This document shows positions 25,354 to 42,773 of a stretch of 64,000 nt of DNA, piece by piece. The notes beneath the pieces were generated by a model. The model did no database searches, was not told where the DNA came from, and saw only the letters and a list, made by a program, of their open reading frames with translations. This DNA comes from an uncultured Victivallales bacterium (GTDB lineage Bacteria > Verrucomicrobiota > Lentisphaeria > Victivallales > UBA1829), in contig CALXSJ010000006.1 of the NCBI GenBank assembly GCA_944391115.1, positions 62,001 to 126,000 on the forward strand, read 5' to 3'. A program made the translations under genes and the position numbers. Position 1 is the first letter of the stretch. Every line of letters begins with the position of its first letter.

Positions 25354-26226
25354 ATGGCGGAAAACAGATGCGGCTTTATTTCCGCGGAGGAAGAGCGCTA
25401 CAACACAACGCTGTATGAGAGCAGCTTGAAGCTTGCTTTCAATATCGGGGATTTTCAGGCATCTCTGGAATCCACGCTTTACTGTTACGGGATCAGCGTG
25501 CGTCCTGACGAGGAACAGTATCTGCATGTGGCGTCTCCGTTTTCCCGCTTCTGGTTTTTTGAAGAGAACGGCGCGGTCATCCGCTACGAAGACGACGGAA
25601 CCGTTTTTCTGCTGCGGCCCGGCCAGCGTTATGTGGTCACGCCGGGACATCCGTTTCATATCACCTATCTGCCGGGCTCTGTCCTGTATTACGCTCATTT
25701 CTCGATGCTCGACTGGACGGGGCAGCGTCTCTTCCGTCATGCGCCGCGTCTGCTGGAATGCGAGACCTCCCTGCCGGAAACCATTCTGAAATCGACTTGG
25801 TCGGCGCGCTGCGCGGGCGGCGCGCTTTCCCTGCTCCTTCATATCGGCGTCCGTTATCTCTTTCAGGACTGGGGAAAACTGCGCGGCGAATATGAACTCT
25901 GCGCCAGGTTCAAACCCGTGTTCGAGCTGATTGCCCGGACTCCTCCCGCACAGCTGCGGGTCGGGATTCTGGCGGACAGCATGCATATGACGCAGGCCGC
26001 GTTTTCGCGGAGTTTCCGCGCGGTCATGGGAATTTCCCCGAAGGATTTCCTGCGGAAATATTATCTGGACCGTGCGGATGAGCTTCTCTGTTTTTCCGGC
26101 TCGTCCATATCTGAAACCGCCCGTCTTCTGGGACACGACGACATTCATAATTTCTTTCATGCCTTCAAACGCATTGCGGGAGTTTCTCCCGCGGAATACC
26201 GTTCCAATCGCGGAAAGAACTCCTGA
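25354..26226 (+). CDS. AraC-family transcriptional regulator
   Basis: This 290-residue regulator has an N-terminal cupin-like sensing half (residues about 30-130; LLRPGQRYVVTPGHPFHITY) and a C-terminal pair of helix-turn-helix motifs: VGILADSMHMTQAAFSRSFR and ISETARLLGHDDIHNFFHAF, followed by the family signature FKRIAGVSPAEYR. AraC-type proteins usually activate sugar-utilisation genes. The next gene on the same strand is a DUF4838 glycosidase with its own promoter flanked by an inverted repeat, a likely target. Confidence 0.9.
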   Translation: MAENRCGFISAEEERYNTTLYESSLKLAFNIGDFQASLESTLYCYGISVRPDEEQYLHVASPFSRFWFFEENGAVIRYEDDGTVFLLRPGQRYVVTPGHPFHITYLPGSVLYYAHFSMLDWTGQRLFRHAPRLLECETSLPETILKSTWSARCAGGALSLLLHIGVRYLFQDWGKLRGEYELCARFKPVFELIARTPPAQLRVGILADSMHMTQAAFSRSFRAVMGISPKDFLRKYYLDRADELLCFSGSSISETARLLGHDDIHNFFHAFKRIAGVSPAEYRSNRGKNS

Positions 26227-26303: not shown

Positions 26304-26307
26304 CAGT

Positions 26308-26335
26308 TGCCGGAATCCTGGTTTCTCATTATAAT
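26308..26335 (+). promoter_or_regulatory. probable promoter of the DUF4838-led operon
   Basis: TTGCCG (26308-26313), a 16-base spacer and TATAAT (26330-26335) lie about 100 bases upstream of the start at 26439. The weak -35 and adjacent inverted repeat suggest activator dependence. Confidence 0.6.
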
Positions 26336-26438
26336 TAATAGCGTGAAATTCAAGTGTTTTCCAGATGGGGAGGACGGATTCCCATCCCCGAACCGAGAAG
26401 AAAAATTGATTTGTTACACAAAGATGAAGGAGCGTTCA

Positions 26439-28874
26439 ATGAAAATGACGGGAAGTCTCATCATTCTGTTTGCGGCTTGTGTTCTCTCCGCCGCTGATAT
26501 CGTCAAGGACGGGAAGAGTCTGGCGACGATTCTTATCCCGAGGGAATCCCCCCGCACCGTTGTTTTTGCCGCGGGAGAGCTGCGGGAGCATCTGGAGAAA
26601 ATGACGGGGGCCGGCATCCCGCTGTCATGGAGCGATCCGGACCGGAGGAATCCTGCCTTTATTCTGGAGATCCGTCCGGAAAAGGAATGGAAGGGAAGGG
26701 AGTCCGCGCAGGCTTTCCGGATTGCGGAAACGGAAAAACCCGCTCCGCAGGTCAGGATCGCGGGCAATACCGGACTTGCGGTCGTTTACGGAGTTTACCG
26801 TTATCTGCACTCTCTGGGTGTCCGCTGGTTCGAGCCTGGAGCGGAGGGTTGTGAGATCCCGCGGAAGAAGACGATTGCCGTGAAGAAAGGTGTCAGAAGC
26901 GAATCTCCCGCAGTGCTTTCCCGCTGCATGGATTTTTCCAATATCTGGCAGGTGATTTATCCCGTGGCGGATCACCGGAAAGATCCGGACGGGTGGAAAA
27001 ATTTCCAGAAAACGGTTCATTATGAATATGATCTCTGGCTTCTCCGCAATCTGATGCATTTTGAACGCACCATTCACGATGAACATCTGTTCGATTTCAA
27101 CAGAAAACCTGGAATCAAGGGGCATTCTCTCTATCCGCATTGCGGGCTCAGCCCTGCCCTGTTCGCCAAGGAACCGGAACGCTTTGCCATGGTCACGCGG
27201 AATTACGTCAAACAGCGGATCTGGAAAGATGCCCAGCCATGTTTTACGAATGAGAAGAATATCCGGACCGCCATCCGGACCGCGGTGGACTATTATCGGA
27301 AAATGGAGAAATCAAAGGATCGGCGCAATACGGATCTGGATGAAATCATGGATGTTTCCATGGCGCTTGCGGACGGACCCGGGATCTGCGAATGCCCGGA
27401 ATGCCGGAAAGTCGGCGGGGACGGACCATACTGGAGAGACCGTCTTGTCTGGCATTTCATGAATCGCGTTGCAAAAGGGCTGCGGGAAGAGGTTCCCCAT
27501 GGAATGATCTCCCTGTTTGCCCCTTACCTGGAATTGAAGCGTCCGCCGGAAGGAGTCAGGATCGAACCGAATATTGTCGCGATAGCCTGCCGGACTCAGG
27601 CATGGCACAATACTCCGGACGCAGGGAAGACTGCTCCGTTTTCCCGGGAATATCTTGAAAATGTCAGGGCCACGCAGAAGGCCGGAGCGCAGATCGCCAC
27701 CTACGATTATATCTACTGGGGTGCGACACCGCAGACCATGGATGTCCTGGACGCCGTGAAATCTTATCAGCGAGACTGGAAGGTCTCCCGCCAGTATCAT
27801 CTGGAGGTCATGGAGCGCGGACCCCATGTTTATCCGTTCCTCTGGGCGATTGCGCAGAGTGTCTGGGACGGGAAACAGGATCCGAGAGAGCGCTTTGCCT
27901 ATTATCTTGAAAATTTCTACGGAAAGGAAAACGGCAGACTGCTCCTCAATCTTTTTCTTGCCATACAGAAAAACAGTCAAAAACTGAACCGCATTACATT
28001 CGGATGTCTGAATGCTCTCTCCGTCATGCTTCCGGATGAAATGAAAAAACAGTGGTGCTCAGCGCTGGCTGAGGCAGAACGGAATGCCACAGGAATCCAT
28101 GCCGCGCGCATGCGGCGTTTCCGTAAGGCATTTGAGTTCCAGATCAAACTGGGAGAGGCTTACCGGACTTATCTTGACGCATTGGTCAGCCGGACTCCGG
28201 AATCGGTCGGCCGATTCCGCCGGAAAGCGGAAGAGGCGCGGAGATTCTGGGATGCGGAAAAGCTTGAGTATACCTTTTACTCCAACTCCGCTGTCAGCGG
28301 AATCCGAATGCTGAAACGGCTTGAAACTGCAAAATTTGATCCTGTAGTCCCGGTTCCGCGCAAGCTGACGGACGAGGAGAGGTATCAGGAGGTTTTTTCC
28401 GGACTCGACACCCTGCCGCCGCGGTCCGCCGGGTTCCGCTTTCTTCCCGATGTCTGGAATTTCATGATTGATCTCCGGGATTCCGGGCTGGAAAACGGCT
28501 GGCACAAACCGGCGTTCGATGATTCGAAATGGTTTCCGCTTTCCTCATCCAATTTTATTGAGGAGCAGGGATTTCCTGAATTTGAAGGCCGCTTCTGGTA
28601 CCGTGTGAAGTTCACGGTGCCGCGAGAGTTCGAGGGGAAAAAGATCACACTCCGGATCGGCTCGCTGGATGATGACGGGGATATCTACATCAATGGGAAA
28701 CTGGCATTTTCCCGCACGGATGCTTCCGGCTGGGACAAATCTTTTGCATTCGACGCCACCGGATTCCTGTTCCCGGGAAAAGAGAATGTGATTGCGATTC
28801 GCGGATATGACAACATCGGAGCCGGCGGACTGTGGCGTCCCTCGGCAATTTATACTGGAGAAAACAGACAATGA
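26439..28874 (+). CDS. secreted DUF4838 glycosidase candidate with C-terminal galactose-binding-like domain
   Basis: This is an 811-residue exported protein with signal peptide [20 protein letters not shown]. An alpha-glucuronidase-like N-terminal domain follows ([40 protein letters not shown]). The DUF4838 core has the cluster CECPEC (Cys317, 319, 322). The C-terminal 150 residues form a sugar-binding jelly roll as in GH2 N-domains ([32 protein letters not shown]). ATG 26439 has AAGGAG six bases upstream; an earlier in-frame ATG would not give a signal peptide. Its stop lies 50 bases before the pseudopilin start. It is likely active on periplasmic or extracellular glycans. Confidence 0.87.
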
Positions 28875-28924
28875 ATGCAGATTGCCCGCTGCAGAGCAGA
28901 GAATGTCGGGAAAGGATGATTTGC

Positions 28925-29652
28925 ATGAATCCATTTGCGAGGCAGAATTTGCGGCAGCTCCGTGGGGAGGGGACCGGGAGATTCAGAGCAGAATTTACTC
29001 TGATAGAGCTCCTTGTAGTGATTGCGATCATTGCCATTCTTGCGGCCATGCTTCTGCCCGCTCTCGCCAGAGCGCGTGATGTCGCGCATCGGATCTCCTG
29101 TCTGTCCAGAGAACGTCAGATCGGCGCCATGATTCTGATGTATGCGGATTCCAGCAATATGCAGATCCCGCCGGCGCTGGATCAGTCGCCCGCAAGATAT
29201 GTCACCGGTTTTACGTGGATTTCCAAAATGCTGCATGCCAATGGTGACAAGCTCGTTTCCGATGGATGTGGAAGTACGGAGTACACGAACAAACTGTTTG
29301 AGTGTCCGAAGATCACGGAATGGCGTGCTCCCATCTACCGCTGGCTCTATAATGCCAAGCTTGGAGGAATGCAGGGGCCCGACGGGTCTCCGAACGAACC
29401 GTCGGGCCCCTGCATCGTCTGAAAAAAATATCCCGGACCTGCATCTTTCTGGAAGGTGTGACAAATCAGGGTTCTTTTACCAACGCATTGCAGCTCCAGC
29501 CGTATTATGAGTATAGAAGAGCGGAATACCGCCATGAAAACGGCGCGAATCTGTTGTATGCGGACGGCCATGCGAGTTATGAAAAACCGACAGCCGAGGG
29601 CATGAGCATCTCTCAGGTCGCGCGTCAGGATGTCTCAACAATGTATGAATAA
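28925..29652 (+). pseudogene. type II secretion-like pseudopilin, frameshifted within an inverted repeat
   Basis: The N-terminal half has leader [20 protein letters not shown], then [19 protein letters not shown] with Glu at +5, and stays open to a stop at 29420-29422. The C-terminal half continues in another frame from before 29407 ([17 protein letters not shown]) and ends with YRHENGANLLYADGH, a perfect H-x9-DG motif, at TAA 29650-29652. The PLHRLKKI stretch aligns with [10 protein letters not shown] of the pseudopilin at 36931, which confirms that the two halves are one gene. The break lies inside a 17-bp inverted repeat (29369-29415). ATG 28925 follows AAAGGA at eight bases; an ATG at 28871 overlaps the preceding stop. 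It may be a real lesion or a sequencing error. Confidence 0.78.
29369..29415. repeat. 17-bp perfect inverted repeat inside the pseudopilin gene
   Basis: The arms at 29369-29385 and 29399-29415 are exact complements with a 13-base loop and are very GC-rich (core CAGGGGCCCGACGG). The structure coincides with the frameshift in the pseudopilin gene. Such a stem is a known cause of polymerase slippage, both in cells and in sequencing. Confidence 0.9.
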
Positions 29653-29664
29653 GGATCTCACAGC

Positions 29665-32259
29665 ATGAAAAAAATCTGTTTCTGGTTTCTAGCTCTGTGT
29701 CCCGTGATTCTCTCCGCAGGAGAAAATTTCTTTGCAGACGGGAATACCGTATGGGCGGTTGATACGGAGAACTCTGCGCATGAGACGATCCGCTACGCGG
29801 AACGGGAGCTGAAGAATGCGTTGTTCAAAATATCCGGTGTGAAGTTTCCGTCGTCTGGAACGGCGGAACACAGGATCGTTCTGAAAGTGGACCCCGCCAT
29901 GCCGGCAGACCGGATCTCCATACGGACCCGGGACGGGAAACTGCTGCTTGCCGGCGGTTCCGAACGCTCCGTACTCTATGCGGTATACACATTTCTCCAG
30001 AAATATCTGGGTGTCCGCTGGCTTTGGCCGGGAGCATCGGGGGAATTCATGCCGCGCAAGGATCGATGGACTCTTCCGGAGATCAATTTTTCCTATCAGC
30101 CGCCAATCAAATACCGTGCTCTGCATCAGACCGGAGACGCTCCGGCGGACAAAGAGGGTTTCCGTGACTGGATGGCCCGGAATTTTTCCACAAATCACTG
30201 GAATGGCGTGAAAAATGACAGAAAAGACAGGGCGCGCGGATTCTATGTCGCCTGGGGTGCCCATGCGGCATGCGTCCCCCAGAGATATTTCAGGCAGCAT
30301 CCGGAATATTTCGCCTTGACCAACGGGATCCGCCATAATATGCAGTTCTGCTTTTCGAACCCGGATGCAATCAAACTGGCGGCAAAAGAGATTGCAGGAG
30401 ATCTCCGGTTACGGAAACCGGAAATCGTGATGCTATTCCCGTCGGACAACCATCAGCTTTGCGAATGTTCCTCATGTTCCGCCATGAAAGGATCGGACAA
30501 ATGGTTCCGCTGTTTCGACAGTCTTGTGAAAATTCTGAAAAAAAGATTTCCAAAAGTGGAATTTCTGAGCTGCGCCTACATGGGATTCATGGATCCTCCC
30601 TCCAGACTGCCTCAGGACTCGCCGTTCACGATACTGACGACATACCGGCGCTGCAATCTCCATAAACTGGATTCCGACTGCCCTCACAATCAGCGGGAAG
30701 CGGCATGGATCAGAGAGTGGGCGAACAAGGGAACCTCCATCGGATTTTACAATTACGAGTTCTGCATATTTCATTGGAAAGAAGGACTTCTGACCCCATT
30801 TTATTCCCTGATCGACGAGAATCTGAAAATGGCGGCGCGCCTGAAGAGTCCGCTTGTGACGACGGAAGTCTGGCAGGGCGGTCCGAAACAGGCGCTTCGT
30901 GACGTGGCATATATGAAAAACCGTCTTGCCGTCTATCTCTATGCCCAGCTGATGTGGAATCCCTCCGCAGACTGCGACGCCCTGATCCGCGACTGGTGCC
31001 AAACGGTTTACGGCAAAGGTGCCGATCCGCTCTACCGCTATTTCAAGCGCATTGACAAACAGTGGACCTCCATGAAAATCCACTGCGGGATTGGAGAATT
31101 TCCTTCCAGATTTGCTGACAGTTTTGTCACTCCGGAACTTTATGCGGAGGTCCGATCCCTTTTTCTTGAAGCGGACCGGCTGAACGGTGGAAAAACCGAT
31201 GCGGTGGAATATGAAAAATATCTGTTCGGACAATGGATGCGCATTGCGCCTCCGAAACCGGGAACCATTCTGTCCCGCATCAAAGACGAAACTTCGCAGG
31301 GCAACCGGATCGGCCGTCTCCCCGTTCGTGCGGCATGGAATGAAAAGAACCTGTTTTTCCACGGGGTGAAACTTCCGTTCGAAGCGGAGATTACTCCGTT
31401 GTTTGCGGAAAAACCTTTCCGCTTCTCCGTTGACGGGAACGGAAAGCGGAGTTCCTCGCCCGCATCTCCCTCGCAATGGTCATGGAACAAAACAAGTGTT
31501 TCCATTCCTGTTTCGATTTTTAACGCCCTGCCGGAGCCCGGATTCTACTGGGGACTCCGCATCCGCAGCGGAGGTCAGGCATGGCCGGCGGATAAAAATT
31601 CTCCCGGATCCATGATTTTTTTCAACAGGGAGAAGGAGGACCGGACAATTCTCTGGAGCAAGGGCGAGAGCCGCTATGACAAGGCCATGGCAAAACAGTT
31701 TGCCGAAATGGGATGGAACTTCGATTTCGCAACCAGGGAACAGATGGAATCCGGGAATCACTCCGTCTATGTCTTCTGCACTGACAAGTGCGAGGGGGGA
31801 TTCGCCCCTGAAATGTGGCCGAAGATCTGGGAGAAAGTCAGAAACGGCGCAATGCTTGTCATACAGCCTCTCCGGCTGGATTTCAAAAAGATCACCGATG
31901 ACGAAACTCTGCTCTTCCGTATCCATGGAATCGGGAAGACTCTGCTGAGCGACCGCAAACCGGAGTATCTGCGGGGCGACTGGCTGAAGAACCCGTTCAA
32001 TCTTCAGAGGGAATTCAACCTCTGCATCACCCCAGCCTATACGGCGGTGCCTCAGCGGCCGGACGCATGGCAGATTCTCGCGAATCAGCCGAAAAGCTCC
32101 AGGGAGAAAAAGACGCGCGAACCATTCATTCTCTTCCGGCCTTACGGCAAGGGGTTTGTCGTGGTGTTCTGCACTCTGAATTACGGAGCCTTTTCACCGG
32201 CGGTTCTGATCGGAAACCTGTATGAAAACAGGGAGGCGCTCCGCGGAAAAAGTCTCTGA
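29665..32259 (+). CDS. secreted DUF4838 glycosidase candidate with C-terminal ThuA/amidotransferase-like domain
   Basis: This is an 864-residue exported protein with signal peptide MKKICFWFLALCPVILSAGE. The GH67-like N-terminal domain includes RYAERELKNALFKISGVKFP and YAVYTFLQKYLGVRWLWPGA. The DUF4838 core has CECSSC (Cys266, 268, 271). Residues about 659-864 form a separate alpha/beta domain (RTILWSKGESRYDKAMAKQF ... FILFRPYGKGFVVV ... NLYENREALRGKSL). That domain is paralogous to the whole next gene and looks like a ThuA/class I amidotransferase fold. The gene follows the pseudopilin after 12 bases and continues the operon. Its probable role is degradation of an extracytoplasmic glycan. Confidence 0.85.
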   Translation: MKKICFWFLALCPVILSAGENFFADGNTVWAVDTENSAHETIRYAERELKNALFKISGVKFPSSGTAEHRIVLKVDPAMPADRISIRTRDGKLLLAGGSERSVLYAVYTFLQKYLGVRWLWPGASGEFMPRKDRWTLPEINFSYQPPIKYRALHQTGDAPADKEGFRDWMARNFSTNHWNGVKNDRKDRARGFYVAWGAHAACVPQRYFRQHPEYFALTNGIRHNMQFCFSNPDAIKLAAKEIAGDLRLRKPEIVMLFPSDNHQLCECSSCSAMKGSDKWFRCFDSLVKILKKRFPKVEFLSCAYMGFMDPPSRLPQDSPFTILTTYRRCNLHKLDSDCPHNQREAAWIREWANKGTSIGFYNYEFCIFHWKEGLLTPFYSLIDENLKMAARLKSPLVTTEVWQGGPKQALRDVAYMKNRLAVYLYAQLMWNPSADCDALIRDWCQTVYGKGADPLYRYFKRIDKQWTSMKIHCGIGEFPSRFADSFVTPELYAEVRSLFLEADRLNGGKTDAVEYEKYLFGQWMRIAPPKPGTILSRIKDETSQGNRIGRLPVRAAWNEKNLFFHGVKLPFEAEITPLFAEKPFRFSVDGNGKRSSSPASPSQWSWNKTSVSIPVSIFNALPEPGFYWGLRIRSGGQAWPADKNSPGSMIFFNREKEDRTILWSKGESRYDKAMAKQFAEMGWNFDFATREQMESGNHSVYVFCTDKCEGGFAPEMWPKIWEKVRNGAMLVIQPLRLDFKKITDDETLLFRIHGIGKTLLSDRKPEYLRGDWLKNPFNLQREFNLCITPAYTAVPQRPDAWQILANQPKSSREKKTREPFILFRPYGKGFVVVFCTLNYGAFSPAVLIGNLYENREALRGKSL

Positions 32260-32358
32260 GAATTATAACATGAAACATGGATGTTTGGAACCGGAGAAAC
32301 AAGGAAACGGTTCTGCTTACAGCAATTATCACGAAAAAAAATGGGAAAGGATTCAGAC

Positions 32359-33090
32359 ATGAAAAACAAACTTTCACTTGCGTGTCTCATTTGTGCCGGG
32401 GCATTGACTTTTGGCGGCAGCGCATTCGCACAGGAACAGACCGGCGCTGCCGGAAAGAGCGTGCTTTTCGTGGAGAACGAGGCAAAGTGGGCAAAGGGCA
32501 ATACCCCTCAGATTAAAAAGCAGCTGGAAGAGGCCGGCTGGAAATTTGAGCTTGCGACTCCGGAGCGCATCATGAAGGAAAACCATCCTGTTTATCTCTT
32601 CAGTTTTGCCAGCCTGGATTTGCAGAAAGGACGATACTGCGATATATGGGAAACTCTCTGGAACAAGGTGAAAGCCGGAGCTGTGGTTGTTTTTCAGCCC
32701 ATCAATCATTTCAGTTTCGTGAAGATTTCCGAAGATGAAACACTGGATCTCCGTGTCCGCGGGATTGAAAAAACCGATCCGAAAGACCGGACGGCGGCCT
32801 ATCTTCCGGGGGATTGGCTGAAAAAACCATGTGATCTTGAAAAGGAATTCAAAAAGTGCATGACCCCTGCCTATGTGGCAATTCCGGACAGTCCGGAAGT
32901 GTGGCAGGTCCTCGCGACTCAGCCGAGAAGTTCGGAAGAGAAAAATGTGCGTGATCCCTTCATCCTGTTTCGTCCTTACGGAAAAGGCTTTATTGTGGTC
33001 ATGGGGCCTACGAATCATTCGTTTTCCATCGGTGTCTTTCTCACAAATCTGTATGAAAACCGGGATGCTCTCCGCGGAAAAAGTCTTTAA
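32359..33090 (+). CDS. secreted stand-alone copy of the preceding protein's C-terminal domain
   Basis: This 243-residue protein has signal peptide MKNKLSLACLICAGALTFGG, likely cut after AFA. The mature part aligns along its whole length with residues about 659-864 of the preceding DUF4838 protein: LPGDWLKKPCDLEKEFKKCM, DPFILFRPYGKGFIVV and the identical ending NLYENRDALRGKSL against NLYENREALRGKSL. The pattern of strands (KSVLFVENEAKW; VKAGAVVVFQP) suggests a ThuA-like/class I amidotransferase fold without an obvious catalytic Cys. The function is unknown. ATG 32359 has AAAGGA eight bases upstream. It lies in the same operon, between the DUF4838 gene and the GH32-like gene. Confidence 0.75.
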   Translation: MKNKLSLACLICAGALTFGGSAFAQEQTGAAGKSVLFVENEAKWAKGNTPQIKKQLEEAGWKFELATPERIMKENHPVYLFSFASLDLQKGRYCDIWETLWNKVKAGAVVVFQPINHFSFVKISEDETLDLRVRGIEKTDPKDRTAAYLPGDWLKKPCDLEKEFKKCMTPAYVAIPDSPEVWQVLATQPRSSEEKNVRDPFILFRPYGKGFIVVMGPTNHSFSIGVFLTNLYENRDALRGKSL

Positions 33091-33117
33091 TCAGATGTTC
33101 TGTCAATGGAAGAAAAC

Positions 33118-34425
33118 ATGAATCACTGGAAACCGAACGGGAATTTTTTTGTCGGAGACTGCATGCCTTTCTTCAGGGACGGAGTCTTTCATCTGTATTA
33201 TCTCCTGGATGTCGGGCATCACAATCATCCGGTGGTCGGGCATCTCGGCGGACACCAGTTCGCCCATGCCGTGAGCACGGATCTGGTCCACTGGACGCAT
33301 CTGCCGATCGCCCTGGGACTGGATTTCAAAAACGGCGAATGCAGCAACTGCACGGGATCCATGCTGGAATACCGGGGAAGGATCTTCGCGTTCTACGCTC
33401 TGCGCTCCCGGAGCTTTTCCGGGGAGGAGCTCCGCATTGCCGTCAGTGACGACGGTGGAACTTCCTTTGTCAGATGGGATCTTCCGGAACTTCCCGTCCC
33501 GTCGGAGAGCTGCGGCAACTTCCGCGATCCCAAGGCTTTCATCGGCCCGGACGGACGGGTTCATCTTCTGATCTCGTCCGGAGCTCTGGAGTCCGGCGGT
33601 GACACTCCCGTCCGGATCGGCGAAGTCCTGCATTTTTCCACGGACGATCTGATTCATTACCGCCGCGAGGAATCATTCCTGCGCTCCCTGTTCATTCCGG
33701 AATGCTGCGACTATTTCCAGTGGGAGGGTCTTTATTACTTTACCTACAACTCCAGATGGGAAACCAGCGTGCGCTGTTCGGAACATCCCCTTGGGCCGTG
33801 GAGAATTCCCTCCATGGACATCCCAGCGTCCCGCTACTGCTGCGTGATGAAAACCGCGCCGTGGAAGGACGGGCGGAGGATCGGCGTCGGCTGGGTCCCG
33901 ACCTGGGAGAACGGCCCGCTTTTCGGAGGGCGGACCGTTTTCCGAGAACTGGTCCGGGAACGGGACGGTTCCATCGGGACCGCGTTTGTCGAGGAGATGA
34001 TTCCGCGGAATCCCCTCCTTGCGCTTGAACGCGTCCTTTTGAAAGGCTCCTGCGGAATCTCCGTGCGCCAGATCGGCGTGTTTCCCCATTCTTTCCGTCT
34101 GGACGGCTCCATCCGCTTCCGGCCGGGAACGGCGGAATTCGGCATGATCGTCATGGATCAGGAGCAGATTTACCGGCGTTTCATTTCCTTCGATCCGCAG
34201 TCGGGGATCGTCGAACTGGATGATTCCACAAGAATCCGGCAGGTGAAGATGGACGGCGGAGAAGTCTCCTTCCGCCTTGTCCGGACGGCGGATGTGCTCG
34301 ACCTGGAAATCAATGGAAGGCGGACCGTGGTATCGTCCCATCTGGATTTCCCGGAGAGCAGCGTGGCGCTCTATGTCCGGGACGGGGAGGCGGATTTCAG
34401 CGGTCTGAAATCATTTGTGTGTTAG
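33118..34425 (+). CDS. GH32-family-like glycoside hydrolase
   Basis: This is a 435-residue five-bladed beta-propeller enzyme of the GH32 type. The motifs appear in order: HWKPNGNFFVGDCMPFFRDG at the N-terminus, with the Asp of GDCMPF in the nucleophile place; FRDPKAFIG, the RDP motif; and IPECCDYF, the EC motif with the acid/base Glu. A C-terminal beta-sandwich follows. No signal peptide is visible, so it is probably cytoplasmic. GH32 enzymes act on fructosides, but this subgroup with the GD-x-MPF variant is poorly characterised. ATG 33118 follows GGAAG at five bases; ATG 33106 has no site. The kinase gene begins four bases after its stop. Confidence 0.8.
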   Translation: MNHWKPNGNFFVGDCMPFFRDGVFHLYYLLDVGHHNHPVVGHLGGHQFAHAVSTDLVHWTHLPIALGLDFKNGECSNCTGSMLEYRGRIFAFYALRSRSFSGEELRIAVSDDGGTSFVRWDLPELPVPSESCGNFRDPKAFIGPDGRVHLLISSGALESGGDTPVRIGEVLHFSTDDLIHYRREESFLRSLFIPECCDYFQWEGLYYFTYNSRWETSVRCSEHPLGPWRIPSMDIPASRYCCVMKTAPWKDGRRIGVGWVPTWENGPLFGGRTVFRELVRERDGSIGTAFVEEMIPRNPLLALERVLLKGSCGISVRQIGVFPHSFRLDGSIRFRPGTAEFGMIVMDQEQIYRRFISFDPQSGIVELDDSTRIRQVKMDGGEVSFRLVRTADVLDLEINGRRTVVSSHLDFPESSVALYVRDGEADFSGLKSFVC

Positions 34426-34429
34426 AATC

Positions 34430-35755
34430 ATGTACGTGCTGGGGCTGGATATCGGAACGACAAAAAGCGCGGCTGTGCTGCTCGAACGGAAAAGCGGTTG
34501 CCCGGCTGCGTTTTCTTCGCAGGCGAACGGCGCGGGAACGGGACGGCAGTCCGTCCCCGCGATTCTGGAATCTCTTGCGGAGGCCGTGCGCGGACTTCCG
34601 GAGGAAAAACGGCGGCGGGTCGGACTGATCGGAATCACGGGACAGATGCACGGCGTCGTCTGCTGGGGCGGGAAACGGAATCCGGTATTTGAAAACTGGC
34701 AGAGCACGCTGGCGGCGGAGTCCGGAGTCCTTGAGAACGTGCGCCGTCTGCCGGGATGTGAGGCGCTCTGCGGCGGATACGGATTCGCGACACTGGCGGT
34801 TCCCGGTTTCTGCAAGGGGTTTCTGCATGCCGGGACCGTCATGGATTATCTCGGTGCGCAGCTGACCGGGACGGAACGCTCCGTCATGGAATGTTCGAAC
34901 GCCGCCTCCTGGGGCTTGTGGGATTTCTCCGTGTCCGGCTGGGACCGGAAGGCGGTGGCGCATTTGGGGATTCCGCCGGGACTTCTCCCGCGTCCCGTCG
35001 CCGGCGGATTTCCGCTTGGCGGAGTCTGTCCGGAATGGGCGCGCCGCCTGGGAATTCCGGAAGGAGCCCGCGTCATGGTTCCGATCGGAGACAATCCGGC
35101 GGCGGTCATCGGAAGCGGCGGTTCGCCGGAAACCGATCTTTTCCTGACAGTCGGGACCGGCGCGCAGCTGGCGTTTCACTCCGCCCGCCCGGAAGAGATG
35201 CGCCGCCCCGGGATGTTTGAACGGCGTCCATTTCCTGCGGGAGGGAGTCTTTTTGTCGGGGCCGTGCTCTGCGGCGGAAAAGCCGTGGAAATTCTCGCCC
35301 GCTTTCTGGCGGATGTGCTGAGACACTTTTCCGCGGACATCCCGATGGAGGAGATCTACCGGAAAATTGCCGGGTGCGGCACTGTTCCGGCCGCGGCTCC
35401 TCTGCGGGTCTCAACCCGTTTCATGGGAGAGCGGGCCGCTCCCGCACTCCGGGGGGAAATCCATAATATCTGTGTGGAGAACTTATCCTTTCAGGAACTC
35501 TGCCGCGCATGGCATGCCGGACTCCTGGACTCCCTGCTGGACGGCCTGCCGCCGGAGATCGCCCGTTCCCGCCGCCGGATTGTCGTGAATGGAAATGCGG
35601 TCCGGAAATCCCCCCTGATGCTCCGGCTGCTGCGGGAACGGATGCCGGAACACGAAATCCTGCTGCCCGATACACGGGAGGAAGCCGCATGCGGCGCGGC
35701 GCTTTACGCCATGCGGAGCGGAAAGCGGAAGTGCCCCGTAAACTTTCCATGGTGA
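34430..35755 (+). CDS. FGGY-family carbohydrate kinase
   Basis: This 441-residue kinase phosphorylates a sugar or ketose in the cytoplasm. The N-terminal phosphate-binding loop is LGLDIGTTKSAAVLLE, and GITGQMHGVVCWGG matches the xylulokinase/sedoheptulokinase signature. The likely catalytic Asp lies in VMVPIGDNPAAVIGSGG, and GTGAQLAFH and RFMGERAAP are typical of the C-terminal half. The start at 34430 lies four bases after the preceding stop, without a strong ribosome binding site, suggesting coupling. As the last gene of the AraC-linked operon it probably traps the sugar released by the GH32-like enzyme. Substrate unknown. Confidence 0.86.
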   Translation: MYVLGLDIGTTKSAAVLLERKSGCPAAFSSQANGAGTGRQSVPAILESLAEAVRGLPEEKRRRVGLIGITGQMHGVVCWGGKRNPVFENWQSTLAAESGVLENVRRLPGCEALCGGYGFATLAVPGFCKGFLHAGTVMDYLGAQLTGTERSVMECSNAASWGLWDFSVSGWDRKAVAHLGIPPGLLPRPVAGGFPLGGVCPEWARRLGIPEGARVMVPIGDNPAAVIGSGGSPETDLFLTVGTGAQLAFHSARPEEMRRPGMFERRPFPAGGSLFVGAVLCGGKAVEILARFLADVLRHFSADIPMEEIYRKIAGCGTVPAAAPLRVSTRFMGERAAPALRGEIHNICVENLSFQELCRAWHAGLLDSLLDGLPPEIARSRRRIVVNGNAVRKSPLMLRLLRERMPEHEILLPDTREEAACGAALYAMRSGKRKCPVNFPW

Positions 35756-35920: not shown

Positions 35921-36931
35921 ATGGTGACAATGAGCGACATCGCCCGTGCGGCCGGAGTCAGCCGCCTCACGGTATCGGCGGTCCTGAACGACAGGCGGGG
36001 TGCGGTCAGGATCAGCGACTCCACGCGCGAACGGGTGATTGCGGTTGCAAGACAGATGAACTACCGCCACAATGCCCTGGCGTCCGCCGTAAGAAAAGGG
36101 CGGACGGACATCATCGGCATCCTGGGGTGTTTTGAAGGCAATTACGGCCTGGAAATGATTAACGGGCTTGTCGATGCCGCAGAGGAAACAGGTTTTTCCT
36201 GCAAGTTCCGTTTCACGGGGAAGCGCAGCGGCATTCTGGAGAATCTGATTTCCTGCCTGGAATACCGGGCCTGCGGAATCATCTGCCGTTCCGGCGACGC
36301 GCAGGTATTGACTGTTCTCCGGAATGAACTGGAAAGAGAGGGAATTCCTCTTGTCCTTCTGGACAGCTGCGCTTCGGCGGACTGGTGTTCCCGTGTCAAT
36401 TCGGATGACTTTGCCGGAGGGCGGAATGCCGCCGGGTTCCTGCTGAACCATTCCGGAAGCCGGATTCTCTATGCGGCATACTGCGACTCCGACGGCATTC
36501 CTTATGCAAAATGGCGCAAGGACGGTTTTGAGTCTGCGCTGGGCCGGCCTCTCCGATCCTCCGAGATGCTTGTCTTTCAAAACCGCGGGGACATCGACGA
36601 TCAGGAAAACTCCGGGATTGCGGCTCGGATCCGCGCCTTTCAGCCGTCCGCCATTTTCTGCGACAGCGATTACATTGCGCTGAAGATTCTTGCCATTCTC
36701 GGAGAATTGCGCCTTTCCGTTCCGGACGATGTTTCCGTCATGGGGTTCGGCGGATTCGACTTTTCCCCTCTCGCGTCCCCGCCTCTGACGACCGTTCAGC
36801 AGCCCTTTGCTGAAATGGGGCGGAACGCGGTGCTGGAATTGAAGCGTCTTCTGGATGGCGGCGCAGTGCGGGACGTGTTTCTGGACACAAAACTGGTTAT
36901 TCGGAAATCGGCGAAGAAGGGAGTGGAATAA
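35921..36931 (+). CDS. LacI-family transcriptional regulator
   Basis: This 336-residue regulator has the LacI helix-turn-helix [20 protein letters not shown] (residues 4-23) and hinge ([20 protein letters not shown]). The effector domain carries the family landmarks [34 protein letters not shown] and the C-terminal [23 protein letters not shown] 35921 and 35930 are both possible. It is preceded by a 12-bp inverted repeat. Its stop overlaps the pseudopilin ATG by one base (TAATG), so regulator, pseudopilin, DUF4838 and GHL6-like genes are probably one transcript. Confidence 0.93.
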
Positions 36932-37650
36932 TGGGAAAGGCGAGGAATGAATTCCGCAGTCACCGGAGATATTTCACACTGATCGAGCTTCTTGTCGTAA
37001 TTGCGATCATCGCCATTTTGAGCGCGATGCTGCTCCCGGCGCTGCAGAGCGCCCGGGAGAAGGCAAGAGGGATTCTGTGCGTGAACAATCTGAAGCAGCA
37101 TGCTCTGGTGTCCAATCTCTACATGGACGCCTATCAGGGATACATGCCGCATGTCAACGACACGCGTATTCCGGCCGGGCCTTACTGGCCCTCCCGTTTC
37201 GTTGACGCCGGCTATATGCGGCAGCGTTCCGGCGGCCAGACGGTCCAGGAATTTTTCCTGCGCAACAGCTGGCTGCGCTGTCCGGCGGGGGCGGAAGTCT
37301 CCGGAAAAACCACTGCGGAATGGGAGCGTTACGGACTGAACAACCGGATCTTCGGCTCTCTCAGCGGCGGGATTCCCGTTTATGTGAAACCGCTTCATTC
37401 CCTGGAAAAGATCAAAAAGGAGCAAACCCTTTCCGGAAAACCGCATCATTATGTATTCGTGTGCAGCGCATTCTGGAAGGAGGACAGATGGATCCAGTAT
37501 TTCAATGCCGACGTCAGCAGCGCGGGCACGAAGCCGGGAATCGGCCTCTGGCACAACCGGAGCGCCAATGTCACATGGCTTGACGGCAGCGTCTCTTCCG
37601 TGAGACCTGCCGAGCTGGATCCCGGAGCATACAGAATCTGCTGGAAATAA
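36931..37650 (+). CDS. type II secretion-like pseudopilin with H-x9-DG motif
   Basis: This 239-residue protein has basic leader [14 protein letters not shown], then [19 protein letters not shown] with Glu at +5 and [20 protein letters not shown]. The globular domain ends with [15 protein letters not shown], exactly His, nine residues, Asp-Gly. The residue before the mature Phe is Tyr where prepilin peptidase substrates normally have Gly. The start overlaps the stop of the LacI gene. It is followed by a DUF4838 gene, repeating the arrangement seen at 12707-17537. Confidence 0.92.
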
Positions 37651-37722: not shown

Positions 37723-40605
37723 ATGATGAAATGGATTCCGGCGTTTGCGCTCTGCTTCAGCGGAATGCTTCTGTCTGCCGGAGAAGCTTTTTTTCCGCTG
37801 TTTCAGGATGGGAAGGCGGCGGCTGAGATTGTCGTCGTCCCGGAGGCGGAAACGCATGTTGCCGCATTCAACCGGGCCTTGAAACGGTGCGGGGGAGCGG
37901 AACTGGCGCTGCGGCGCGGGGAACGGCGTCCCGGGGTTCCTTCGATTGTTTTTGAGATTACGGAGAAACCGATTGACCGGGATGACGCCTTTTCCATTGT
38001 TTTCCCCGACCCGCTGACGCTGAAGATCATTGCCTCTCCCCGTTCCGTGCGCTGGGCCCTGAATGCGATTCTGGAACAATACGCTGGCGTGGTTTTCTGT
38101 TTCCCCGGCGAACGCGGGGCGCATTATCCGCGGAGGACGGACATCCGGATTCCGGTGCGCGGCTTCCGGGATGATGCGGATCTGAAACTTTCCCGCTTCT
38201 TTACGAGAGAAGACCGGGAATGGCTTCTGAACATGAACGGCAAGGAACTTGGCCGGATCGACTTCGTGATCGGACACAATGTCGGGCTGACCGTTCTGCC
38301 GCCGTCGAAATATGCCTGCGCCCGGTGGAGAGAGAAGATCATGCCGCTCCGGAACGGGAAACGCCTTGCATCGCCCCCCCGGGACACGCACGGCTGGCAG
38401 CCGTGTTACAGCAGTCCGGACGCCGTTTCCGAAGCGGTGAAGAATATCTCCGCGTTTCTTGCCGGGCATCCCGGGACGAAATTCTTTTCCATTTCCGCCA
38501 ATGACATCGGCGGCTATTGCGAGTGTTCCGCCTGCGTCCGGGCGAACGGGGGAGTGCGGAAGAACCGTTACAACCGCCGTCTCCGGAACTGGTCCGACGT
38601 CTACTTCAAGTGGTGCAACGCCGTTGTGTCGGAAGTTTCCGGAAAGTTTCCGGAAGTCTATTTCGGGACGCTGGCTTACTCCGAGACCTCCGAACCGCCT
38701 TCGTTCAAACTGCATGACCGGATCGTGGTTGCCATTCCGACGGATCTGCATGCCCTGATGAAAAAAGGGCGCATGGAGGAGGTCCGGAGCATTTACGAGG
38801 CCTGGAGCGGAAAAGCCGCGAACCTGGGAATCTGGGAATATGGATTTGCCGCAGGCGATTATTCCATTCCCCGCCTGCCGTGGAAACTGTATTCCGCGGG
38901 TCTGCGGATGCTGAAGGCGAACAGGGGCGGTTTTTTCTTCTGCGAGAGCGCGCCTTTGACCGGCGAGGGGCCGAAACGCTGGCTTTATCTGAAAATGGCG
39001 TGGGATGTCGACGCCGATCCGGACCGTCTTCTCCGGATATGGTGCGCCGCATGCGTGGGGGAAAAGGCGGGAAGGCTTCTGGAACGCTATTATCGCTGGA
39101 CGCATGACTTCTGGACTTCCGAACAGGTGAACCGGACTCCCTGGGCGCGGACGGCGGGACTTTATTTCGCGCGCGGCCTGACGGAATCTTATCTGCTTGC
39201 TCTCGGAAAGGAGGATCTCGCCGGATGCCGCAGACTCATGGAGGCGATGTTCGAGGAGGCGAAACGTTCCGGAGATCCCGATCAGCGGTACCGCGCGGAA
39301 CGTCTGCTGCGCTTCTACGATTTTCATGAATGCATGGCCCTCCTCGGCGGGGGCGGGCTCGTACCGCTTGATTCTTCGAAAAGGCTGCCTCCCGATGCGC
39401 TGATGAACCTCCGGAGCGCCGGGGAGGTCTGCGCTCTGCTGGACGCCATGCCCGGAATCCTGCGGCGTCTTGCCCGTCTTCCGGAAATCATCGCCGAACT
39501 CAATCGCGACGGGTTCAGCGGAACGCTGGAAAGCAGGAGAATTCCCGTGGGAAGGAATATCCCGGGCGTTTTCCTGAATCCCGTATTCCGCTGGAGGCGG
39601 GACCCCTCCGTCCGCGCCGCCATCCGGAAGACGGCGGAGAATCCGGAACTTCCCGCCGGAGCCCGACGGCAGCTCTCCGATATTCTCCGCTTTGAAAAAC
39701 TTCCCGAACTGATCGCGCCCGCGGACGACGCAGAGGAACTTGCCCTGTGGGACATTACCCGTCCGGGCATGCTGGTGGAGCTGGACCATTCCACGGGAAA
39801 ACGCCGGATCAAGGTGACAAAACAGAGCGGCTGGGCCGCCGTCCGGCGCAAGATTCCCGAGGCGGATCCTTATCACAGCTATGCGGTGGAGCTTACCGTT
39901 TCCGCTCCTCCGGAGAATGTCGCCGGAAATGCGAACAGCCGCCTGATCCTCTGTTCCTCCCCGAATTTCGATTATACGACGCGCAGCTCGCATTCCACGG
40001 AATTTTATCCGCAGTTCCCTGGGAAAAAGGTGAAAATGTCCATCGCCGCCACGTTCCCGGGCGATGTCTACGGCGGCTATTTTTATGTGATCTGGAACGG
40101 GCTCGAGCAGGGAAGGCATTTTTTCATCGAAGACATCCATGTCCGGGAACTGGGAGGGGATCCCCCGTGTGAAGAGCATTCCGTCGCAGGATGGAGAACG
40201 GACGGGAGGAAGGAAGGCGTTGTGCGGACGCCGGACGGAATCGCCGTCCGGAACATTGCGGGGATCACGCCGCTTGTTTCCGAAACGGAATTTCCCGTGT
40301 GTCCGGGAACCCGTTTCCGGATTGTCGCTCCCGTGAAAGGGAAGGGGGTTTTCCGGATCGGCATTGCGGCATTCGACGGGAACGGCCGCCATCTGGGAAA
40401 TCTTCACGGCCGTCTGATTCAGGCGAACCAGGCGGACCGGAGCCGGAATGCAAAATGGGAGGAGACTCTCCCTTCCGCCGGACGTTTCCGGGAGGTGAGG
40501 CGGATTGCCGTCCGCCTTGAGATGCGCCGCGGCGGCATGGAGTTCGGACCGGTCAGGATTCTTTTTTTCAAAGCGGAAAAATCAAACGGAGAGGTTCCGG
40601 AATGA
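37723..40605 (+). CDS. secreted DUF4838 glycosidase candidate
   Basis: This is a 960-residue exported protein; the signal peptide is MMKWIPAFALCFSGMLLSAG (ATG 37723 or 37726). A GH67-like N-terminal domain (residues about 25-130; RSVRWALNAILEQYAGVVFC) is followed by the DUF4838 core with CECSAC (Cys266, 268, 271). The C-terminal third (from about 670) is beta-rich, with two probable carbohydrate-binding-like domains (ALWDITRPGMLVELDHSTGK; FRIVAPVKGKGVFRIGIAAF). Its stop overlaps the start of the GHL6-like gene in ATGA. It probably attacks an extracytoplasmic glycan. Confidence 0.85.
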   Translation: MMKWIPAFALCFSGMLLSAGEAFFPLFQDGKAAAEIVVVPEAETHVAAFNRALKRCGGAELALRRGERRPGVPSIVFEITEKPIDRDDAFSIVFPDPLTLKIIASPRSVRWALNAILEQYAGVVFCFPGERGAHYPRRTDIRIPVRGFRDDADLKLSRFFTREDREWLLNMNGKELGRIDFVIGHNVGLTVLPPSKYACARWREKIMPLRNGKRLASPPRDTHGWQPCYSSPDAVSEAVKNISAFLAGHPGTKFFSISANDIGGYCECSACVRANGGVRKNRYNRRLRNWSDVYFKWCNAVVSEVSGKFPEVYFGTLAYSETSEPPSFKLHDRIVVAIPTDLHALMKKGRMEEVRSIYEAWSGKAANLGIWEYGFAAGDYSIPRLPWKLYSAGLRMLKANRGGFFFCESAPLTGEGPKRWLYLKMAWDVDADPDRLLRIWCAACVGEKAGRLLERYYRWTHDFWTSEQVNRTPWARTAGLYFARGLTESYLLALGKEDLAGCRRLMEAMFEEAKRSGDPDQRYRAERLLRFYDFHECMALLGGGGLVPLDSSKRLPPDALMNLRSAGEVCALLDAMPGILRRLARLPEIIAELNRDGFSGTLESRRIPVGRNIPGVFLNPVFRWRRDPSVRAAIRKTAENPELPAGARRQLSDILRFEKLPELIAPADDAEELALWDITRPGMLVELDHSTGKRRIKVTKQSGWAAVRRKIPEADPYHSYAVELTVSAPPENVAGNANSRLILCSSPNFDYTTRSSHSTEFYPQFPGKKVKMSIAATFPGDVYGGYFYVIWNGLEQGRHFFIEDIHVRELGGDPPCEEHSVAGWRTDGRKEGVVRTPDGIAVRNIAGITPLVSETEFPVCPGTRFRIVAPVKGKGVFRIGIAAFDGNGRHLGNLHGRLIQANQADRSRNAKWEETLPSAGRFREVRRIAVRLEMRRGGMEFGPVRILFFKAEKSNGEVPE

Positions 40606-42773
40606 CACATCTTGCAGAGGACCGCAGAGAGATCTTTCTCAATCTTTTTTATCCGGAACGGATTCGCGGGTTTGACGTCGACGCATGGGTCGCGCATTAC
40701 GCGGCGGAGGGGGCGACTTCATTCTGTCTGGACATCAAGGATCAGGCTTATGTCTATTACGACTCGCGCCATGCGCCGAAATGGAGCATTCTCGGGGCGC
40801 GCGATTTCGCCAGGGAGCTTTCCTGCGCCGTCCGGAAACGCGGACTCAAATGGAGCGCCTACATCGCGCCGTCGGAATTCGCATTTCTGGACGGGGAACC
40901 GGACACGGCGGACTGGCAGGTGCGCTTCGAGGACGGTTCCACCCCTCCGGAAACCGTATGGAACCGGAAACGCTACTGCTGGAATTCCCCCTATGCGGAT
41001 CTCCTGCTGCGGATTCTCGGAGAGATCGCCGCGGAATATCATCCGGACGGTTTTTATCTGGACGGCGTCGCATGGCCGTGGTTTTATGAAAGGCCGCTCT
41101 GCTACTGCCGTTTCTGCCGGGAGCGGTTCCGGCGCGAATACGGTGCGGAAATTCCCGGGAGCGCGGAAAAGGAGAGTGAAACTTTTGTAAAATTCATTCT
41201 GGCGCGGAGGAAATGGAACTCCGAAATCGCCGGAAGGATCCGGGAGACCGTCAATGCCGTCGATCCGGAAATCACGCTTGTGACGAACTGTGTTTTTTCC
41301 TTCCACGACTGGACATGTTCCACACAGCCGGAAACCGCGCGGCATTTCGATTTCATGTGCGCGGAGGATCCGCCGTCCCTCTTCCGGAACGAACGGCTGC
41401 CGCGTCTGTTTTCGCCCGGAGACACGCTGCTTCTGAAGGCGGCTCTCCTGCGCATGCTGGCGGGCGGCAGGCAGGGCGAGTTCTACTCCAGCTATCACGC
41501 AGACGTGCCGATGGAGGAAATCCTGCTCAATCTTGATCTCTATTCCGCCGCGGGCATGCGCACATCATTTTCCCCGCTGAGAAAGGATTCCCGGATCCTG
41601 CTGGAGCGTCTGCGGCGGATCGAGCCGTGGATCCGCGGACTGGCCCCCGCTCCGGAAATTGCCGTCCACCTCGGCGAGGACACAAGAATCGGCGGTTTCC
41701 GGACGCAAACTCTCCTTCCGGAGATTCCCGGCGCGGATTCGGATCCTTTTTTTCAGGAACCTCTCGCCTTTTTCCGGTGCGGACTGGATCTGCATCTGCC
41801 GCTGGAGTTTGTATCCGATTCCGACCTGGAGCATGACAATCTGCATGGGGCGCGTATCCTGGTTCTCCCGGACAGCATGGTGCTTCCCGCGGGATTTGCC
41901 GCCTCCTTCCGATCGAAGGTGGAAAGCGGATGGAATGTGCTTGCATCCATGGAGACCAATACGAAAAACAGATTCGGCGCGACTCTTTCCGATGAGCCGC
42001 TGTTCCCCGGTTCGGGATTGCGTCTGGCCGGACGCGTCCGGACGCCGAAGCCGTGGTTCCTGCGCCGGAAGGACGGGAAACTCGAATTCCAGGAACCGGT
42101 CCCCGATGCGCGCGCCGTCTATCTCTCCTTCACGGAGGGGGAGGCGGAGGAATGGATCGGCGAAAACGTCGCTTCCCATGCCGCGGCGCTTGGTTTCCGG
42201 ACCGAAGACCGGCAGGCGCATTGTCTCCGGAACGATCCCCGATCCGTGCACTGGCCTGCGGAGGCGGTGATTCTGGAAGCGGACCGGAACTGGAAGGTGC
42301 TGGCATTCCTGAAATATCTGGATGAAGAGAGCGGGGAGTGGAAGCAGTCTCCCGGCATTGTGGAACGGAAATTCGGCAAAGGGCGGATCATTTATCTGGC
42401 CTTGGGCTTCTCGCTGAAAAACGGATGTCATCCTCTCTGGCGCCGGACCCTGATGGAACAGCTCCTCCGCCGGCTTTCCGGAGAGGAGCCGCAGATCCGG
42501 ATTCAGGCTCCGCCGTGCGTCAAAGCCGTCTTTTTCCGGCAGGGGAGGACGCGGATCATCCACCTCGTGAACGAACTCTCCCCGCAGGGGGGAGACGCGT
42601 ATGCCGAGGAGCGCATTCCGGTCTCCCTGGATCTCTTTCTGAACGGACCGGCCCCTTCCGACGTCTCCTTTCCCGTTCTTGAAGACGGCGCCCGGGCGGA
42701 TTTGAGCGCGGACTCTTCCCATTATCACTGCACCGGGCTGAAACGGCGGATGGTGGTCCGGATTTCCGGATGA
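40602..42773 (+). CDS. GHL6-like putative glycoside hydrolase, cytoplasmic
   Basis: This 723-residue protein has no signal peptide. Residues 1 to about 350 resemble the hypothetical glycosyl hydrolase 6 TIM-barrel group: FDVDAWVAHYAAEGATSFCL, YHPDGFYLDGVAWPWF and CYCRFCRERFRREYG, again a C-x-C-x2-C cluster just after the barrel strand carrying Asp. The middle part (about 390-620) resembles the beta-galactosidase trimerisation domain (LHGARILVLPDSMVL; KFGKGRIIYLALGF), and the C-terminus is a small beta domain. It overlaps the secreted DUF4838 gene by four bases and so is coupled to it. It may finish cytoplasmic breakdown of the oligosaccharides released outside (inference). Confidence 0.75.
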   Translation: MTHLAEDRREIFLNLFYPERIRGFDVDAWVAHYAAEGATSFCLDIKDQAYVYYDSRHAPKWSILGARDFARELSCAVRKRGLKWSAYIAPSEFAFLDGEPDTADWQVRFEDGSTPPETVWNRKRYCWNSPYADLLLRILGEIAAEYHPDGFYLDGVAWPWFYERPLCYCRFCRERFRREYGAEIPGSAEKESETFVKFILARRKWNSEIAGRIRETVNAVDPEITLVTNCVFSFHDWTCSTQPETARHFDFMCAEDPPSLFRNERLPRLFSPGDTLLLKAALLRMLAGGRQGEFYSSYHADVPMEEILLNLDLYSAAGMRTSFSPLRKDSRILLERLRRIEPWIRGLAPAPEIAVHLGEDTRIGGFRTQTLLPEIPGADSDPFFQEPLAFFRCGLDLHLPLEFVSDSDLEHDNLHGARILVLPDSMVLPAGFAASFRSKVESGWNVLASMETNTKNRFGATLSDEPLFPGSGLRLAGRVRTPKPWFLRRKDGKLEFQEPVPDARAVYLSFTEGEAEEWIGENVASHAAALGFRTEDRQAHCLRNDPRSVHWPAEAVILEADRNWKVLAFLKYLDEESGEWKQSPGIVERKFGKGRIIYLALGFSLKNGCHPLWRRTLMEQLLRRLSGEEPQIRIQAPPCVKAVFFRQGRTRIIHLVNELSPQGGDAYAEERIPVSLDLFLNGPAPSDVSFPVLEDGARADLSADSSHYHCTGLKRRMVVRISG

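Follow-up and report, generated by a model that had tools for sequence, protein, structure and literature searches.

A DUF4838 gene is followed by a separate gene for its C-terminal domain

Near the middle of the window (the whole 64,000-nucleotide stretch of DNA that was analysed), a gene for a large DUF4838 protein is followed after a gap of 99 bp by a short gene whose product corresponds to the C-terminal domain of its neighbour (Table 1). Both frames were present where the original prediction had placed them, and the motifs FILFRPYGKGF and NLYENR-x-ALRGKSL are common to the fused and the free copy. The DUF4838 region (PF16126) was recognised at 138.5 bits and E 3.5e-40, far above the Pfam cut-off of 26.6, which makes the fused protein a member of this family. 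As predicted, residues 658-864 of the fused protein and the free product are homologous over their whole length. BLASTP aligned the two products over 234 columns with 46% identity (204 bits, E 8e-65), a MAFFT alignment of the two domain segments gave 50% identity, and their Smith-Waterman score of 520 compares with a mean of 31, a standard deviation of 5.5 and a maximum of 68 for shuffled sequences (n=1000). At the DNA level, similarity was detectable across the final 369 bp (69% identity). The last ~38 bp, of which about 35 of 38 are identical as counted by eye, are unusually similar and stand above the remainder of the pair, through either constraint or a short conversion tract.

The free product starts with a signal-peptide-like stretch ending in SAFA-QEQ and the fused protein has a hydrophobic, signal-peptide-like N-terminus, so that both products look exported; the predicted signal peptide of the free product agrees with the earlier description of an independent secreted protein. 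A purine-rich GGGAAAGG is located about 8-15 bp upstream of the ATG of the free gene, while a longer alternative frame starting at 32281 would render the signal peptide internal. A promoter and terminator scan, the figures of which were near chance level, returned nothing resembling a promoter or terminator on the coding strand between the two genes.

Table 1. Features of the fused and free-standing gene pair and of the surrounding cassette (window coordinates).
Feature	Coordinates	Strand	Evidence and remarks
AraC-family regulator	25354..26226	+	Pfam; 57% identical homolog starts the contig-3 cassette (tblastn)
Prepilin-like protein, N-terminal methylation motif	28832..29422	+	Upstream of fused gene; Pfam; homologs in several related loci (tblastn)
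Fused gene, 864 aa	29665..32259	+	ORF; signal-peptide-like hydrophobic N-terminus, DUF4838 region, low-confidence linker, C-terminal domain
DUF4838 region, residues 121-460 of fused protein	30025..31044	+	Pfam; Foldseek with full model
Stretch linking barrel to C-terminal domain, residues 529-657 of fused protein	31249..31635	+	pLDDT <50 at 529-658; gaps relative to relatives
Fused copy of shared domain, residues 658-864	31636..32256	+	BLASTP, MAFFT, AlphaFold
Free-standing gene, 243 aa	32359..33090	+	Signal peptide (about residues 1-24), then shared domain
Mature free domain (modelled part)	32431..33087	+	AlphaFold pLDDT 86.6, pTM 0.86
GH32 N-terminal-domain (GH32N) protein	33106..34425	+	Pfam E 1.8e-18; starts 15 bp past free gene
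FGGY-family sugar kinase	34415..35755	+	Pfam; overlaps end of GH32N gene

The pair lies in a cassette that recurs elsewhere in the genome. An AraC regulator, a prepilin-like protein, the fused gene, the free gene and GH32N are common to the window and a locus on contig 3, while a contig-11 locus holds the prepilin-like, fused, GH32N and kinase genes and lacks a free copy. The GH32N homologs downstream of the contig-3 and contig-11 genes are 62-63% identical to that of the window, and the kinase homolog at contig 11 is 35% identical (tblastn). Prepilin-like proteins with an N-terminal methylation motif repeatedly adjoin DUF4838 or GH genes, at window positions 28832-29422 and 36931-37650 and at L009, L010, L044, L045, L051, L052 and L056.

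The shared domain belongs to an uncatalogued, patchily distributed family

The shared domain matched no Pfam or NCBIfam model, and a search of PDB sequences likewise gave no family. It is an uncatalogued and patchily distributed family: whole-genome profile searches detected it in 22 of 198 genomes of the class, in 20 of 137 of the order and in 19 of 388 drawn from the phylum. When named genomes were scanned with the free protein alone no match was obtained, while a tighter alignment yielded eight named loci, the carriers being one Planctomycetota MAG and otherwise MAGs of Lentisphaeria, some of them recovered from the colon of sheep and the cecum of roe deer. A search with the domain alone had been proposed as a way to see its architectures, and in it the domain almost always formed the C-terminal end of a large DUF4838-type protein, with the free form confined to one genus. 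In the large carrier frames that were scanned, DUF4838 was accompanied by a CBM9-like stretch, the CBM9 matches in the linker region of these relatives being below the cut-off. The corresponding region of the window protein (31249-31635) is much shorter, as seen from alignment gaps.

Most DUF4838 proteins do not have this C-terminal domain. This genome has at least 29 DUF4838 matches, among which five intact proteins carry the domain (in the window, on contigs 1, 3 and 11, and at a second contig-6 locus). A first look gave 63 DUF4838 candidates here and up to 144 in one relative, and several genomes of the same family had none. The window itself contains four DUF4838 genes (14607-17537, 26307-28874, 29665-32259 and 37723-40605).

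The predicted fold resembles the trimerization domain of GH42 enzymes

The free protein was modelled by AlphaFold with good confidence (pLDDT 86.6, pTM 0.86). The full-length fused model was weaker (pLDDT 70) because it does not resolve residues 529-658, where pLDDT falls below 50. The models of the fused and the free domain have an identical order of strands and helices; different folds for the two segments, which would have spoken against a common origin, were not seen. The best PDB match of the free model in Foldseek was the GH42 structure 5e9a (E 1.1e-6, TM-score 0.58 by query length), and further GH42 structures (4oif, 5dfa, 5xb7 and 3tts) were matched, this family filling most of the top ranks. 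They were followed by GATase1-like and ThuA-like proteins and by other sugar enzymes, including homotrimeric Op5Man5, with TM-scores that were moderate throughout (about 0.5-0.58). The models and these matches agree with the ThuA/class I amidotransferase-like fold that had been proposed from the sequence. The modelled DUF4838 barrel itself resembles GH115, GH138, GH84 and GH20 enzymes (best E 8.7e-15, Foldseek with the full model) and is plausibly a glycosidase barrel.

The absence of an evident catalytic Cys, also part of the original prediction, extends to the family as aligned. In an alignment of 38 domains no Cys column is conserved (at most 5 of 38 rows), nor is any His column, and acidic columns are weakly conserved; the Cys-His-Glu triad of class I glutamine amidotransferases was not found in the shared domain, and amidotransferase activity was judged unlikely since this triad is missing. 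The invariant or near-invariant positions are instead a Gly-Ala pair, an Arg, a Trp, a GKG turn and an Asn near the C-terminus.

Profile comparisons reached only faint similarities. Against GH42 domain B hhalign gave P 0.0034 (column-shuffled controls 0.08-0.76), and against 16 ThuA proteins a probability of 48.5% and P 1.8e-4. Neither window copy matched PF08532 in Pfam, of 33 members one gave a hit at E 0.24, short of the cut-off, and the domain had no match to PF06283 (ThuA) or to a GATase family. Judged from its model, the shared domain is domain B-like by fold, yet outside PF08532 and PF06283 as these are defined.

With GH42 domain B the family shares not only its best structural matches but also its place C-terminal to a glycosidase-type barrel, the motifs NG(A/G)xxxxxSY and GKGxVxxxx (compared by eye) and the lack of an amidotransferase triad. 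It differs in being joined to DUF4838 proteins via a CBM9-like region, in the window protein via the stretch 529-658 that is not resolved in the model, and in occurring also as a free, secreted protein; a glycosidase-type barrel is attached in the fused copy only, the free copy having none. Like the fused protein, Op5Man5 and Bs164 carry a GH42-type domain B on another catalytic barrel, but their barrel families differ from DUF4838, and excerpts of their descriptions do not mention a separate free copy of domain B. ThuA (PF06283) and GATase1-like proteins, finally, are, like the free copies, stand-alone proteins with the same general fold, and they show weak profile similarity, but the present domain is mostly fused to DUF4838 proteins and its free copies are secreted.

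Free copies arose repeatedly next to fused genes

Genuine free secreted copies numbered three in this genome plus one ortholog in a sister species, G001. Besides the window copy, one lies on contig 3 (L009:5888-6610), 80 bp past its fused neighbour and ahead of a GH32N gene, and one on contig 1 (L044:2048-2761), where a fused gene in divergent orientation lies about 5 kb away. The contig-1 copy is the one with an ortholog, at a similar location in G001; an ortholog of the window copy was not found. All three genes of this genome are intact and have signal peptides, and every free copy found adjoins or sits near a fused gene, while most fused proteins occur without a free copy. No genuine free copy was found outside this genus in the class, order and phylum genome sets. 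Three look-alikes were rejected: G109 L046:6587-7378 is the frameshifted remnant of a fused gene, G347 L103:6264-6767 is a fragment at a contig edge, and L102:5133-5804 on contig 3 is a remnant behind a decayed CBM9-like stretch. The latter forms part of a decayed fused gene (L102:4850-5804) that sits downstream of an intact DUF4838 gene and in which the domain is no longer in frame with the CBM9-like stretch.

The duplication had been called recent, and here the original prediction failed. For the window pair dS was about 1.7 and dN 0.42 over 210 aligned codons; by comparison, dS is 0.21 between the fused gene of contig 1 and its ortholog in G001. The window duplication is therefore old.

A maximum-likelihood tree placed the free and fused copies of the window as sisters (support 100/100), and likewise those of contig 3 (99/96), the two clades lying well apart. 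When the G109 remnant is omitted, the supported branches require the free state to have changed three times. The AU test rejected a tree constrained to unite the free copies of the window and contig 3 (p 9.2e-5), and with it a single origin for these two, as well as a tree in which all four free copies form one group (p 1.05e-4). For the contig-1 copy the test allowed either its own fused neighbour (AU p 0.39) or the free copy of contig 3 (p 0.11) as sister. Free copies thus arose at least two times independently, perhaps three, the remaining alternative being an old, domain-wide gene conversion. That the free form originated repeatedly in a single lineage speaks for its usefulness. Between this genome and G001, the free orthologs of contig 1 have a dN of 0.077 and a dS of 0.69 (dN/dS about 0.11); the contig-1 gene, the sole free copy with an ortholog, is therefore selectively maintained, under purifying selection.

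A possible partner of the parent enzyme in trans

The reading that we put forward, which we rate at slightly under an even chance, is that a GH42-type oligomerization domain has separated from its parent enzyme more than once, each time giving a secreted protein that partners this enzyme in trans. The shared domain would be a non-catalytic member of the class I amidotransferase fold, of the oligomerization type known as domain B in GH42, in the GH5 enzyme Op5Man5 and in GH164. The suggestion that the domain is a dimerisation module gains strength from its modelled fold, because the structures that it matches best are glycosidase trimerization domains. Op5Man5 is described as a homotrimeric GH5 exo-beta-1,4-mannosidase from a verrucomicrobial termite symbiont, in which domain B makes its contacts exclusively with the catalytic domain of the adjacent monomer and there are no B-B contacts (PMC8233224); in Bs164 (GH164), the domain B contact apparently helps to position active-site residues (PMC7105311). 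A detached domain B could therefore dock in trans. In the fused DUF4838 protein, the domain would most likely pack onto the catalytic barrel of the protomer next to it. The free copy, a duplicate reduced to a signal peptide and the domain, would most likely bind the same surface in trans and might complete, cap or modulate the oligomer outside the cytoplasm. Export of both products, closeness of the genes, repeated origin beside the parents and purifying selection are consistent with a partner protein that is functional, and the emergence of the fused-plus-free arrangement at least twice suggests that the free domain cooperates with the enzyme. Against this reading count the faint sequence similarity to GH42 domain B, the moderate TM-scores, the stretch between barrel and domain that sets the protein apart from GH42, the many fused proteins without a free copy and the restriction of the free form to a single genus. 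The duplication within a family of the GH42 domain B type is real, old and repeated, and the functional proposal is a plausible hypothesis. The more far-reaching version, in which domain budding has turned the DUF4838 oligomerization domain into a dissociable quaternary-structure subunit, repeatedly released as a secreted protein able to assemble in trans with the enzyme from which it came, or to regulate it, is a more tentative idea.

Separate origins could be mimicked by later within-locus gene conversion of a single ancestral fused-plus-free pair. The alike cassettes of the window and contig 3 and the highly similar 3' end of the window pair would suit this, but within-locus copies are only 47-49% identical without a long stretch of high identity (window and contig 3), so that conversion would need to have been ancient and to have covered the whole domain. 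The two loci moreover have their fused domains in separate supported clades and a single clade of free copies was rejected (p 1e-4), which leaves this history improbable. We give about the same small weight to the view that the free copy has no current role, being a leftover of tandem duplication and internal deletion retained by chance. Decayed relatives do exist, namely the contig-3 remnant and the frameshifted G109 gene, and the free copies are restricted to one genus; against chance retention speak the three intact genes with their signal peptides, the constraint on the contig-1 copy and the conservation of amino acids in the window pair, where dN is well below dS.

The domain could also be a glycan-binding accessory module, the free copy then being a sugar-binding protein, secreted or periplasmic, that collects substrate for the same pathway. 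Its position after a CBM9-like region in relatives, the GH32N and sugar-kinase genes at the loci and its conserved Trp, Tyr and Arg positions are in accordance with this, but the fold is that of GH42 domain B, GATase and ThuA rather than of a beta-sandwich CBM, and we consider such a function unlikely. That the domain is itself an enzyme of ThuA-like or amidotransferase-like type, and the free copy a stand-alone enzyme, seems very improbable: such folds occur among the structural matches and the ThuA profile similarity is weak but present, whereas the alignment lacks a conserved Cys or His column, has weakly conserved acidic columns and comes without a GATase or ThuA match in Pfam.

The in-trans partner reading bears on a family with almost no literature, mentioned by a single paper among those searched, yet with dozens of copies in these gut-type bacteria. 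An uncatalogued accessory domain that has a known structural counterpart and a free form offers a handle on the assembly of DUF4838 proteins, and raises the question whether a separate copy of the oligomerization domain can act as a control on the glycosidase oligomer to which that domain belongs.

Two further observations concern neighbouring features. In aligned DUF4838 proteins, FP-x-D followed by CxCxxC is nearly invariant (about residues 259-271 of the window fused protein) and may form a metal or disulfide site next to an Asp that is a catalytic candidate. The product of window 40602-42773, a GHL6/fucosidase-like protein with a weak match to the GH42 trimerization domain (E 0.0055), may be a second nearby protein that combines a barrel with an amidotransferase fold.
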